DNA of 11,527 nucleotides from Actinomycetes bacterium (GTDB lineage: Bacteria > Actinomycetota > Acidimicrobiia > Acidimicrobiales > RAAP-2), in contig JANXTQ010000068.1 in NCBI GenBank assembly GCA_025352305.1, forward strand, positions 1 to 11,527. The letters are read 5' to 3'. Within the stretch, counting starts at the first letter, position 1. Each line of letters opens with the position of its first letter. Positions 2,494-6,254 of the stretch are shown here, piece after piece. Position numbers and translations under genes: made by a program. Below the pieces are notes generated by a model. The model had not been told where the DNA came from and did not search any database. It was given only the letters and a program-made list of their open reading frames with translations.

Positions 2494-4628
2494 GCTCGTC
2501 CGCACGGCGCGAACAGTTTCTCGCGGCCTTAGGTTTTGGAATCGATGAGTTCCAACTCGAAGCCTTTGATGTCATTGACAACGCGGAGAACGTTCTCGTC
2601 AGCGCCCCGACCGGTTCCGGCAAGACACTGATTGCGACCTACGCCATTGAGCGTCAACTCGAGGCGGGCAAACGCAGTTTCTACACCACTCCACTCAAAG
2701 CGCTGTCGAATCAGAAGTATCACGAACTCGCTCGCCGCTACGGAGAGAGCAAGATCGGACTGCTCACTGGCGACGCGTCCATAAACCGTGATGCACCGGT
2801 CGTTGTCATGACCACTGAAGTACTGCGCAACATGTTGCTGGGCGAATCGCACCAGACCCGTGACCTCGGTCTCGTTGTTCTCGACGAAGTCCACTTTCTC
2901 CAGGATCCCTTTCGTGGGGGAGTGTGGGAGGAAGTCATCATTCTCACGCCCTCGGCCGTGCAGTTCGTGGCGCTGTCGGCCACCGTGTCCAACGCCTCGG
3001 TACTCGGAGAGTGGCTAAGCGAAGTGCGCGGCACGACGCGCGTCGTTCTCGAGTCCACTCGGCCCATCAGTCTTCACAATCACGTGGCCATTGTTCGACG
3101 TGCTCAAGAACTGCCCGAGTTGATTGATCTGCTGAAAGATCACAAGTTGTCCGACGAGGCGCGTCGAATCGACGCGTTGATGAAGACCACCCGCAAATTT
3201 CGACCCGGTCCGCATTGGAAGGGCCCTAAATCCTCGGCGCCACCACCGCCTTTTCGTTCTCCACGTCGCAGCGAACTCCTCCAAGTCATGGACGGCCAGG
3301 ATCTGTTGCCCGCCATTGTTTTCATTTTCTCGCGCGCCGCGTGTGATGAGGCGGTGCGCCAAGTTCGCCGCGACGGATTGTTGTTTACGTCTCCCGAAGA
3401 GCGTCTCGAGATTCGTGCAATCGCGGCCGGCAAAGTCGGAGATTTCTCCGACGATGATCTACAAGCTCTGGAGTTCCACGAATTCGTCGAGGCGCTCGAA
3501 CGAGGGATCGCGGCGCACCATGCGGGAATGGTGCCGGCATTTCGCGAAATCGTCGAGGCCTGCTTCGAGGCCAATCTTCTCGGCGTCGTGTTTGCTACCG
3601 AGACGCTGGCACTCGGAGTGAATATGCCGGCGCGATCGGTGGTCCTCGAACGATTCAATAAGTACTCCGACGACGGCCGACATCTGTTAACGAGCGGCGA
3701 ATTTGCCCAACTGACCGGGCGAGCTGGCCGTCGAGGACTCGATGATGAGGGTCACGCCGTGATCTGCTTTGCCACCGAGACGTCCATGGTGGACATTGGC
3801 CGCGTGGCCATTTCGCCCCCGCCGGACCTTCACAGTTCCTTTCGACCGACCTACAACTTCACGGCGAACCTGATCCACCATTTTGACTCCGAAACAGCTC
3901 ATGAGATCTTGCGCAAGAGCTACGCGCAGTTCGAAGCGGACCGTCGTGCCGCGGGAACGCGGCGATCATTGGCCGAACTGATGTCCGCGCGTCATCACGT
4001 CTTAGAGGACCTGGGCTACGCCAAAGAGTGGACCCTGACTGACGGCGGTGAACAGTTGAGATCGGTGTATCACGAGTGCGATCTGTTAATTACCGAAGCC
4101 CTGCGATCAGGAGTCTTTGATGACGCCGAGCCCGCCACGATTGCTGCGGTGCTGTCGTCGTTTGTTTATGAACCCAAACGGGCTAAACGAAGCGGCCCGC
4201 ACCGCCAGACCCCCACCCGTAAGCAACGCGTCAGAAATGACCGTCTCGGCGACCAGCGCCGAAGTGACATCAACCAACGGGTCGGCTCGGTCATAGGACT
4301 CGCGGCGTACGTCAGCGAGGTGGAGGACCGCTACCAGGTCCGTCACGCCAAGGACCCCGACCCCGGCTTCGCTAGCACCATTGCTGCGTGGGTACGGGGG
4401 GCACCGCTGACGACGGTTCTCGAGATTGCCGAGCACGACGCCGGGCAGTTGTCGCCGGGTGATTTTGTTCGAAACGCCAAACAGGTGGGCGATCTCTGCG
4501 AGCAGCTCGCTCGACTGTGCCCCGGAACCGAGTTGGCGAACTGCGCGGAAGAGGCCCGTTCGGGCATCATTCGCAGCGTCGTGGCCGGCGTCTCCGTCAT
4601 CCCTCCGAGCGCCAAGCGCGCCCTCTAA
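2490..4628 (+). CDS. helY: DEVH-box superfamily 2 helicase, HelY/Ski2-Mtr4-like
   Basis: This is an ATP-dependent helicase of the Ski2-like group, whose members unwind structured RNA. Read from GTG 2490 the product has 712 residues. Motifs in order are Walker A SAPTGSGKT (38-46), TTPLKALSNQKY (motif Ia, 66-77), LLTGD (91-95), DEVH (132-135), SAT (163-165), AAHHAGMVP (341-349), FATETLALGVNMPAR (368-382) and QLTGRAGRRG (407-416). The C-terminal part from about 500 resembles the DSHCT domain. A Pro/Arg-rich insert (about 235-260) separates the two RecA lobes. Mycobacterial HelY is roughly 900 residues, so this is a compact version. The open frame continues upstream inside tatC, but homology begins just after 2490, and GTGA overlaps the tatC stop by four bases, which points to translational coupling. 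tatC followed by helY is a conserved actinobacterial order. Confidence 0.93.
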   Translation: MSSSARREQFLAALGFGIDEFQLEAFDVIDNAENVLVSAPTGSGKTLIATYAIERQLEAGKRSFYTTPLKALSNQKYHELARRYGESKIGLLTGDASINRDAPVVVMTTEVLRNMLLGESHQTRDLGLVVLDEVHFLQDPFRGGVWEEVIILTPSAVQFVALSATVSNASVLGEWLSEVRGTTRVVLESTRPISLHNHVAIVRRAQELPELIDLLKDHKLSDEARRIDALMKTTRKFRPGPHWKGPKSSAPPPPFRSPRRSELLQVMDGQDLLPAIVFIFSRAACDEAVRQVRRDGLLFTSPEERLEIRAIAAGKVGDFSDDDLQALEFHEFVEALERGIAAHHAGMVPAFREIVEACFEANLLGVVFATETLALGVNMPARSVVLERFNKYSDDGRHLLTSGEFAQLTGRAGRRGLDDEGHAVICFATETSMVDIGRVAISPPPDLHSSFRPTYNFTANLIHHFDSETAHEILRKSYAQFEADRRAAGTRRSLAELMSARHHVLEDLGYAKEWTLTDGGEQLRSVYHECDLLITEALRSGVFDDAEPATIAAVLSSFVYEPKRAKRSGPHRQTPTRKQRVRNDRLGDQRRSDINQRVGSVIGLAAYVSEVEDRYQVRHAKDPDPGFASTIAAWVRGAPLTTVLEIAEHDAGQLSPGDFVRNAKQVGDLCEQLARLCPGTELANCAEEARSGIIRSVVAGVSVIPPSAKRAL

Positions 4629-4640
4629 TCTGCATAGTCC

Positions 4641-6254
4641 ATGCACCAGTACGTCGCCGAAGAGTTCACCGCCGAAGAGGCCGCCGTGCTGCGTCGCTAC
4701 TTCACGAATCTCGAGGGGCCGGTCTTCGCTCTGGTGAATCTGCCCGAGGTGGTGAAGGGAGCTCTTTTTGCTCGCTACTCACGCTCGTCCAAGAGTTTGC
4801 GACGACTTTTTCTTGACGAATTCGTTGGTGACCTCGACCTAACGGGTGACGTGTCGATTGATGCGACCATTGGCCTCGGACGCGCCGAAGAGCTCTACCA
4901 AAAGGTCTTCTACGAATACGGTGACGACTCGGTGGCGCAACTCGGGGGAGTGCACCTCGCCTGCGAGCAAGCGAGCAACGTGCTGACCAAAGTCCTCGAG
5001 TGGGGACGCCTGATGAGTTACCTCGAACAGTCGACTCGCTATTTGGGCTACGACCGACGCTTAAGCAACGGTCACTACCGGTTCTATCGCGACCAGGAAA
5101 TTTTGGAGTCTCGTTACGGGGCGCGCTACGTCGGCGAAATGGACCGTATGTTTGATACGTACGCCGATATGTTGCCGAAGTTGTCGGAATGGTTGACGCA
5201 TCGCTATCCCAAGACGCCCGAGGACACCGACTTCGCGTACCGTCAAGCCATTCGTGCCAAGGCCCTCGACGCCGTGCGGGGACTGTTACCGGCCAGTGCG
5301 CTTTCTAACATGGGCATCTACGGATCCGGGCAGGGATACGAGGCCCTGTTGCTGCGCATGCGCGCTCACCCGCTGCGCGAAGTTCGTTCCTACTCCGACC
5401 TGATGTTGACCGAACTCAGCAAGGTGATTCCCTCTTTTTTGCGCCGAGTTGAGGTCAAAGATCGCGGCGTGAAATGGAGTGAGTATTTGGCGGAGTCCAA
5501 AACCGCCACCAGCCAACTCGTCGCAAGTTTGTCCATGGGACTCGACGACAACGAGGCCGGCGAATCAGTAACGCTGGTGGGCTTTGACCCCGAAGGCGAA
5601 GATCGCATTCTGGAATCAATTCTCTTTGCCAACGGCAACGTCACTCACGACAGTGCGCATCGAATCATGAAATCGCTCACGGGCCTGCAGCGTCGAGAAC
5701 TCATGTTTACCTACGTGGGCGAGCGCACCAATCGGCGCCACAAGCCGAGTCGAGCCTTTGAGCGAACCGACTACCGATTCGAATTAGTCACCGACTACGG
5801 CGCGTTCAGGGATCTCCAACGGCACCGTCTCGCGACCATTGAGTGGCAACCGCTAAGCACCGAACTCGGATTTGATATTCCCGACGTCATCACCGAAGCG
5901 GGACTGAGCGCGGAGTACATCAGTTCACTGGAACGCAGCCGCGATCTCTATGAGACATTGACCAACGATTATCCCAACCAGGCCCAGTACTCCGTTGCCC
6001 TCGCCTTTCGAATTCGCTACGTCATCCAAATGAACGCCCGCGAAGCCATGCACCTCATTGAGCTTCGTTCGGGTCCCCAGGGCCACCCCAGTTACCGACG
6101 AGTGGCGCACGAGATGCACCGACTGATCGCCACGGTGGCCGGACATGAACTGGTGGCCGAGTCAATGCAGTACGTAGATTTCTCTGACACCGATCTAGAG
6201 CGACTCGCTGCCGAACGCGCCGCAGAATCGAATCGGTCACGCTTCCGACTTTAA
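4641..6254 (+). CDS. Tandem-domain ThyX-like protein (FAD-dependent thymidylate synthase family)
   Basis: The 537-aa product consists of two diverged copies of the ThyX (Thy1) fold; ordinary ThyX chains are about 220-270 residues and act as homotetramers converting dUMP to dTMP with FAD and methylenetetrahydrofolate. In the first half, residues 121-134 match the ThyX motif RHRx7SxR but read WGR-x7-S-T-R (Glu129, Ser131, Arg133 kept). In the second half, residues 394-396 are RHR, but the Ser position is Pro404 and the Glu and Arg positions are Trp402 and Ser406. The NAR motif appears only in the second half (465-467), with Arg494 further on; the first half has GQG at 230-232. The start at 4641 follows helY by 12 bases and has no clear ribosome site. 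Family membership is fairly sure; thymidylate synthase activity is not, because each half lacks residues needed in a classical site. It could be a nucleotide-binding paralogue. Confidence 0.85.
   Translation: MHQYVAEEFTAEEAAVLRRYFTNLEGPVFALVNLPEVVKGALFARYSRSSKSLRRLFLDEFVGDLDLTGDVSIDATIGLGRAEELYQKVFYEYGDDSVAQLGGVHLACEQASNVLTKVLEWGRLMSYLEQSTRYLGYDRRLSNGHYRFYRDQEILESRYGARYVGEMDRMFDTYADMLPKLSEWLTHRYPKTPEDTDFAYRQAIRAKALDAVRGLLPASALSNMGIYGSGQGYEALLLRMRAHPLREVRSYSDLMLTELSKVIPSFLRRVEVKDRGVKWSEYLAESKTATSQLVASLSMGLDDNEAGESVTLVGFDPEGEDRILESILFANGNVTHDSAHRIMKSLTGLQRRELMFTYVGERTNRRHKPSRAFERTDYRFELVTDYGAFRDLQRHRLATIEWQPLSTELGFDIPDVITEAGLSAEYISSLERSRDLYETLTNDYPNQAQYSVALAFRIRYVIQMNAREAMHLIELRSGPQGHPSYRRVAHEMHRLIATVAGHELVAESMQYVDFSDTDLERLAAERAAESNRSRFRL

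Follow-up and report, generated by a model that had tools for sequence, protein, structure and literature searches.

How can a protein made of two flavin-dependent thymidylate synthase (ThyX, FDTS) halves, neither of which carries a complete active site, provide a bacterium with thymidylate? The question is raised by an open reading frame on a stretch of 11,527 nucleotides, hereafter the window, from an Actinomycetes bacterium (Acidimicrobiales, RAAP-2; assembly GCA_025352305.1, contig JANXTQ010000068.1). The frame begins with an ATG and runs on the forward strand from 4641 to 6254, encoding 537 amino acids. Its residue conservation and its genomic context indicate that the product is very probably the thymidylate synthase of this bacterium, a flavin-dependent ThyX in which two protomers have been joined, most simply by a single ancient event, and now divide the work of the active site between them.

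Thy1 (PF02511) is the sole family detected in the 537-residue product by a Pfam scan, and it is detected twice (Table 1). The whole protein scores 112.4 bits against this profile (cut-off 24.8), which places it in the superfamily, and both halves also exceed the cut-off when scored alone, with 52.3 bits for residues 1–285 and 63.7 bits for residues 286–537. The predicted structure of the chain (m492a2717a6ab), with a mean predicted local distance difference test score of 86.5 and a predicted template modelling score (pTM) of 0.85, shows two ThyX folds within one chain, the fold test on the model recovering ThyX in both halves. Sequence searches of the PDB returned no solved fused chain; one of them gave no ThyX chain at E ≤ 1 and another only a weak single-domain ThyX (E 0.03).

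Residues of the two halves were paired through the secondary structure of the predicted model and through profile alignment, and the pairing agrees with motif spacing in single ThyX proteins; a direct profile alignment of the N-half with the C-half gave no useful result. At an offset of 273, strands and helices E104-112, H113-119 and E125-129 pair with E377-385, H386-392 and E399-402, and at an offset of 236 E220-228, H230-241 and H246-262 pair with E456-465, H466-476 and H483-498. W121/G122/R123 of the N-half hence stand opposite R394/H395/R396 of the C-half, and E129/S131/R133 opposite W402/P404/S406. Thermotoga maritima R147 corresponds to R213 in the N-half and Q449 in the C-half, and R174 to R476 in the C-half and to M240, adjoining R241, in the N-half. 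R467, the Arg of the NAR triplet, faces Q231, so that the N-half triplet is S229-G230-Q231, and His53 of T. maritima faces D95 (GHxS motif, here G94 D95 D96 S97) and approximately P369. The T. maritima numbers 147 (the Arg of ARxVLP) and 163–165 (NAR) are placed by motif spacing. The position of Mycobacterium tuberculosis R87 falls, by offset from RHR, on N113 and Y386. The residues expected to contact deoxyuridine monophosphate (dUMP) and flavin adenine dinucleotide (FAD) are in this way distributed over the chain, with S97, E129, S131, R133, Y134 and R213 in the N-half, RHR, R467 and R476 in the C-half, and D95 in place of His53.

A preliminary description of the sequence had already proposed that the two halves show complementary loss of active-site residues. 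Every residue letter that it named is found at its number in the product, and its central opposition, of WGR (121–123) with E129/S131/R133 in the N-half and RHR (394–396) with W402/P404/S406 in the C-half, is confirmed, as is its view that neither half of the window protein possesses a complete canonical motif. Several of its finer assignments must be revised. The triplet GQG (230–232), taken as the NAR counterpart, lies one residue off the S229-G230-Q231 given by the model offset; R494 and T257, taken as the later Arg pair, are replaced by R476 and M240 in the model and the profile alignment, R494 being kept in 99 of 119 fused proteins and therefore not invariant; and the His53 position, correctly described as lacking His in both halves, had been assigned to G102 and R375 instead of D95 and approximately P369.

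The distribution of site residues is reproduced across three sets of fused proteins. The Actinomycetota-type set (n = 364) comprises window-type proteins from loci and protein searches, together with seven distant proteins from plasmid or phage records; only reading frames covering almost the entire family profile were admitted, and partial sequences (e.g., L030, L158) and identical ones were dropped, which reduced the locus reading frames from 127 to 119 while near-identical ones were kept. Three protein searches were made, each retaining the best 120 of at least 8000 candidates. The Acidobacteriota-type set (n = 120) was found with the protein of phage Tunturi_5 and has named rows from Terriglobales or Acidobacteriia, and the viral set derives from sixteen IMG/VR contigs of 36–529 kb. 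S97, E129, S131 and R213 of the N-half and R394, H395 and R476 of the C-half are present in 364/364 Actinomycetota-type proteins, and R133, Y134 and R396 in 362/364; the two exceptions are misaligned Bacillales rows (Paenibacillus and Bacillus licheniformis; plasmid records L169 and L170), and in a smaller alignment both keep all site residues, their C-half motif reading RHNR instead of RHR through a single inserted residue. At position 121, in the decayed RHR of the N-half, the 364 proteins have W in 288 cases, R in 67 and H in 3.

In the N-half, H95, S97, E129, S131, R133, Y134, R213 and R231 are found in all 120 Acidobacteriota-type proteins, as are RHR and R476 in the C-half; the RHR position of their N-half is occupied by D-E-Q (119, 120 and 115 of 120) and the loop of their C-half is lost. 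The viral proteins retain S97, E129, S131, R133, R213, RHR and R476 in 16/16 and Y134 in 15/16, with Ala replacing the Tyr in the single exception (L186). Both residue sets are consequently kept in 362/364, 120/120 and 15/16 proteins, respectively (497/500 in total), and an alignment of nine proteins reaching down to 22% identity contains 24 invariant positions, ten of which are site residues. Since the 500 sequences are related and partly near-duplicates, the weight of this comparison lies in the distance between its groups, with only about a quarter to a third of residues in common, and not in the number of sequences; judged from these sequences, the complementary residue sets are not the product of chance. 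A complete half occurs in none of the 500 fused proteins, so that the notion of a canonical ThyX complete in one half, with the other half serving only as a scaffold, can hardly be credited and was rejected.

Published work on ThyX indicates what such a division would mean for the site. In M. tuberculosis ThyX, RHR 95–97 and Arg199 come from one subunit (A), Ser71 and Arg190 from a second (B), and Arg87, Ser105, Arg107 and the lid Tyr108 from a third (C) (PMC6514825), and Arg172, equivalent to R213 here, binds the dUMP phosphate (PMC9571937). In the PBCV-1 enzyme, Ser88 and Gln89 are contributed by one monomer and Arg182 and Gln75 by the other (PMC3498832), and in T. maritima dUMP is activated by R174, the reaction is slowed by the S88A, R90A and Y91A substitutions (PMC8316439) and R78 faces the flavin (PMC11940539). 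Mapped onto the fused proteins, the A-role residues all lie in the C-half and the C-role Ser, Arg and Tyr in the N-half. The B-role Ser71 lies in the N-half in all three sets, as does the B-role Arg190 in 120/120 Acidobacteriota-type and 14/16 viral proteins.

In the arrangement that these roles suggest, two fused chains would pair into a pseudo-tetramer, and each working site would draw from a C-half RHR, which would contact flavin and dUMP, and R476, which would activate the uracil, and from N-halves S97 (flavin) together with the E/S/R/Y loop and R213 (dUMP, flavin, lid). With the A role in the C-half and the B and C roles in the N-half, the symmetry of the tetramer implies that both chains would contribute their N-halves to each site. 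Two paired chains would then hold two functional sites, both in contact with either chain, along with two mirror sites that are dead, and the chemistry would be that of ThyX, with dUMP, methylenetetrahydrofolate (CH2-THF) and reduced FAD yielding thymidine monophosphate (dTMP) and tetrahydrofolate (THF). Conservation in the three protein sets and the published subunit roles support the earlier proposal of a composite site with a decayed mirror; its count of one composite site per chain also stands, although its placement within the chain is probably wrong, since M. tuberculosis sites use three subunits. The alternative of a composite site formed by an N-half and its own C-half, in a chain able to work alone or in any oligomer, is unlikely but deserves consideration, for the single AlphaFold2 chain yields a compact model (pTM 0.85) and the dUMP contacts by themselves need only two protomers (R95 and R199; R87, S105, R107 and the Y108 lid) (PMC6514825). 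However, canonical sites span three subunits (PMC6514825, PMC11940539), and retention of the B-role S97 in the N-half, with R231 in the Acidobacteriota-type branch, calls for a second N-half. A bolder version of the divided site shared between two chains, and in our view a rather improbable one, is that of an obligately asymmetric ThyX in which the three-subunit site became permanently divided through fusion, the dead mirror pockets still bind flavin or nucleotide in a regulatory role, and the window's branch operates without the His53 folate/flavin residue through a natural His-to-Asp replacement.

The genomes in which the fused protein occurs point to thymidylate synthesis. The genome of the window (97.94% complete) has one Thy1 locus and, in profile searches, no match to thyA, tdk or dNK. 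Among this genome and 60 relatives, 58/61 carry Thy1, with matches paired by contig and open-frame length apart from one contig-end fragment, and 9/61 have a thyA-type match. Of 149 Actinomycetota genomes at least 90% complete, 113 have Thy1, 44 with at least two matches and 69 with one. A thyA match accompanies paired Thy1 matches in one of 43 genomes (G183), where it is a fragment on the contig that carries the sole folA match and is perhaps contamination. Among 46 genomes with paired Thy1 matches, 30 lack a tdk match and none of these 30 has a thyA match; 28 of the 30 also lack a dNK match, the other two having weak matches below the cut-off. A genome taken as Acidimicrobium ferrooxidans (G136) has no thyA, tdk, dNK or folA match, and this species grows autotrophically on ferrous iron (PMC3035218). 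A survey table gives ThyX in 6/6 Acidobacteria and ThyA in none, the form of ThyX being unspecified (PMC5954106). In phage Tunturi_5 the fused gene directly follows a dCMP deaminase gene, with a dUTPase gene near, and on a Euzebya plasmid a dCTP deaminase gene lies three genes upstream; the 16 viral contigs, scanned with crude motifs in their flanks, yielded no deaminase or dUTPase genes, so that the Tunturi_5 arrangement cannot be taken as general. In many genomes, the fused ThyX looks like the only thymidylate synthase.

This context bears on the possibility that the fused protein is a methylase of ThyX type that acts on a different substrate or has no essential role, comparable to PolB, a UMP/dUMP methylase, or to the thymidylate-dispensable ThyX of Corynebacterium glutamicum. 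Structural comparison is silent on substrate, PolB matches having Z scores below that of T. maritima in the C-half and within 1 of it in the N-half. The lack of thyA and dNK matches in 28 of the 30 tdk-less genomes, the retention of the gene in 58/61 genomes and the invariance or near-invariance of S131, R133, Y134 and R476 make such a role very improbable. On the earlier suggestion that the reaction itself may have changed, the genetic context favours dTMP synthesis of the ordinary kind; the His53 position holds Asp in 359/364 Actinomycetota-type proteins but His in 120/120 Acidobacteriota-type ones.

Several observations weigh against a thymidylate synthase with a cleanly divided site. R213, the counterpart of Arg172 and R147, is kept only in the N-half and not on the RHR side, where database annotation would place T. 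maritima R147; the preliminary description had placed it there as well, and in the fused proteins it is retained in the N-half together with the Ser, Arg and Tyr. The B-role Arg190 is represented in the window's branch by Q231 in the N-half and R467 in the C-half, and neither half of the window protein has Arg at the position of M. tuberculosis Arg87; these three points fit the published roles less well. D95 replaces His53. The split is not strict everywhere, as Arg persists at 123, the third residue of the decayed RHR, in 360/364 proteins and at 241, next to the position of R199, in 238/364, and the C-half position opposite S97 is Ser in 24/120 Acidobacteriota-type proteins. The window protein scores 43.3 against the NCBI thyX equivalog TIGR02170 (cut-off 87.9). 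At the genome level, tdk is present in 38/61 genomes, and the three genomes without Thy1 all have tdk, one of them with a thyA-type match. The absence of folA, found in 45/46 genomes with paired Thy1 matches, was rejected as strong evidence because Thy1-less controls mostly lack folA too (no match in 14/20, drawn from 36, and in 18/20 single-ThyX genomes, drawn from 69).

Two of these positions have features of their own. Between branches, the Arg190 position appears to switch sides, the Arg lying in the N-half in Acidobacteriota-type and most viral proteins and in the C-half in the window's branch. The window's branch naturally has Asp at the T. maritima His53 position, and structures of the T. 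maritima H53D mutant exist (4kar and 4kas, by their titles).

Canonical ThyX (T. maritima TM0449 and M. tuberculosis ThyX; PF02511, TIGR02170) shares its fold with both halves, and nearly the full set of its site residues is present once across the fused chain, the exceptions being His53 (Asp) and the R87 position. The fused chain differs in consisting of two unlike protomers, neither of them complete, and in falling below the TIGR02170 cut-off; the RHRx7SxR motif, whole in one canonical protomer, is absent from both halves, and two working sites are inferred in place of the four of the canonical homotetramer. Because its score lies below the equivalog cut-off and no single protomer has the whole motif, the fused form is not classed as canonical ThyX. 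Of the other proteins scored, P0122, P0308 and L171 also score below this cut-off, L172 has no match, and the B. licheniformis protein (L170) exceeds it with 101.1. PolB, the UMP/dUMP methylase of polyoxin synthesis (PMC5003785), has a ThyX fold like the fused halves, but a 239-residue chain of one ThyX domain's length and a changed substrate. The Thy1 of Thermus thermophilus (6j61) combines the ThyX fold with an extra C-terminal domain in a 270-residue chain, and the addition is not a second ThyX protomer.

A domain-duplicated ThyX was described by Valas and Bourne in 2009 in the Chloroflexi then sequenced, except Dehalococcoides, which had only ThyX (PMC3224940). This is probably the same family; the account, in its available part, covers architecture, without residues, a split site or a mechanism. 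In the literature covered on fused or duplicated ThyX, itself available in part and with most subscription journals outside it, the duplicated form appears only in that work and complementary loss nowhere. The architecture was known earlier, and the division of the site is, as far as seen, new. In a tree of 41 sequences and 130 columns, 14 N-halves form one clade (support 100) and 14 C-halves another (support 91), with the Acidobacteriota-type group present in both. This topology would most simply reflect one old fusion followed by vertical and lateral spread, long-branch effects being possible at this divergence.

Table 1. Positions in the window of the fused gene, its halves and its site residues, with the supporting match or the conservation in the Actinomycetota-type (of 364), Acidobacteriota-type (of 120) and viral (of 16) sets.
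Feature	Position	Strand	Support
Fused double ThyX (Thy1-Thy1), 537 aa	4641..6254	+	Two PF02511 matches, predicted structure
N-half (residues 1-285)	4641..5495	+	Thy1 match 4878-5435
C-half (residues 286-537)	5496..6254	+	Thy1 match 5736-6140
D95, T. maritima His53 position	4923..4925	+	D in 359/364; H in 120/120 Acidobacteriota-type
S97, kept FAD-side Ser (M. tuberculosis S71)	4929..4931	+	364/364, 120/120, 16/16
W121-G122-R123, partly decayed RHR (first Arg and His lost, R123 still Arg)	5001..5009	+	
E129-Q-S131-T-R133-Y134, kept dUMP/flavin loop and Tyr lid	5025..5042	+	Conservation in all three sets
R213, kept Arg of ARxLLP motif (T. maritima R147, M. tuberculosis R172)	5277..5279	+	364/364, 120/120, 16/16
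S229-G230-Q231, decayed NAR of N-half	5325..5333	+	Model offset; Q231 359/364; R in 120/120 Acidobacteriota-type
R394-H395-R396, kept RHR	5820..5828	+	R394, H395 364/364; R396 362/364; RHR 120/120, 16/16
W402-Q-P404-L-S406, decayed loop of C-half	5844..5858	+	402 W 236, A 114 of 364; 404, 406 drift
Q449, decayed R147/R172 position of C-half	5985..5987	+	Q 168/364; R 6/364
N465-A466-R467, NAR of C-half	6033..6041	+	R467 358/364; A, S or G in 120/120 Acidobacteriota-type
R476, kept uracil-activating Arg (T. maritima R174, M. tuberculosis R199)	6066..6068	+	364/364, 120/120, 16/16

The gene is preceded on the same strand by, in order, the end of a Pup ligase gene and genes for signal peptidase I, TatA/B, TatC and a DEAD/DSHCT helicase, the last ending at 4628, 12 bases upstream; the intervening bases (4629-4640) contain no clear Shine-Dalgarno sequence ahead of the ATG. 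Downstream lie genes for a DUF4193 protein, a GNAT-like protein and a trypsin/PDZ protease, with two family-less reading frames in between, and no mobile elements were seen among the ten proteins scanned around the gene.

Related loci present further variety. Two genomes (G109 and G098) encode a single, very divergent ThyX of about 302 amino acids (L148, 4004-4909, and L149, 4380-5288, respectively), with LNTHR...SSRA replacing RHRx7SxR; each has one Thy1 match and no thyA match, and other genomes of the family of G109 (f39) have paired Thy1 matches. Two genomes (G029 and G099) have four Thy1 matches each, forming two apparent fused loci per genome. Short thyA-like proteins, often of about 214 amino acids and matching only the middle of the model, are found at L033-L036 and in five more genomes of the same genus, giving 9/61 genomes, eight of them alongside a fused ThyX; they could be base-modifying relatives of thyA. 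A plasmid record labelled Parabacteroides distasonis plasmid 45 (L168, NZ_OY725790.1) encodes a fused ThyX 47% identical to that of the window, and a survey lists no ThyX in the 55 genomes of the labelled phylum (PMC5954106); the record represents either lateral transfer or a mislabelled entry. Two loci titled as a Bifidobacterium breve metagenome-assembled genome (L122, L147) carry an Acidimicrobiia-type fused ThyX, and their titles look wrong.

If the division of the site is as proposed here, a large and so far uncharacterised branch of this essential enzyme would run with half the sites of known ThyX, and rules based on the canonical motif or on the equivalog would label its members as broken. 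The fused proteins would also offer a naturally occurring test of what each protomer contributes to a three-subunit site, a hard point in ThyX studies, since their halves can be mutated separately, which is impossible in a homotetramer.
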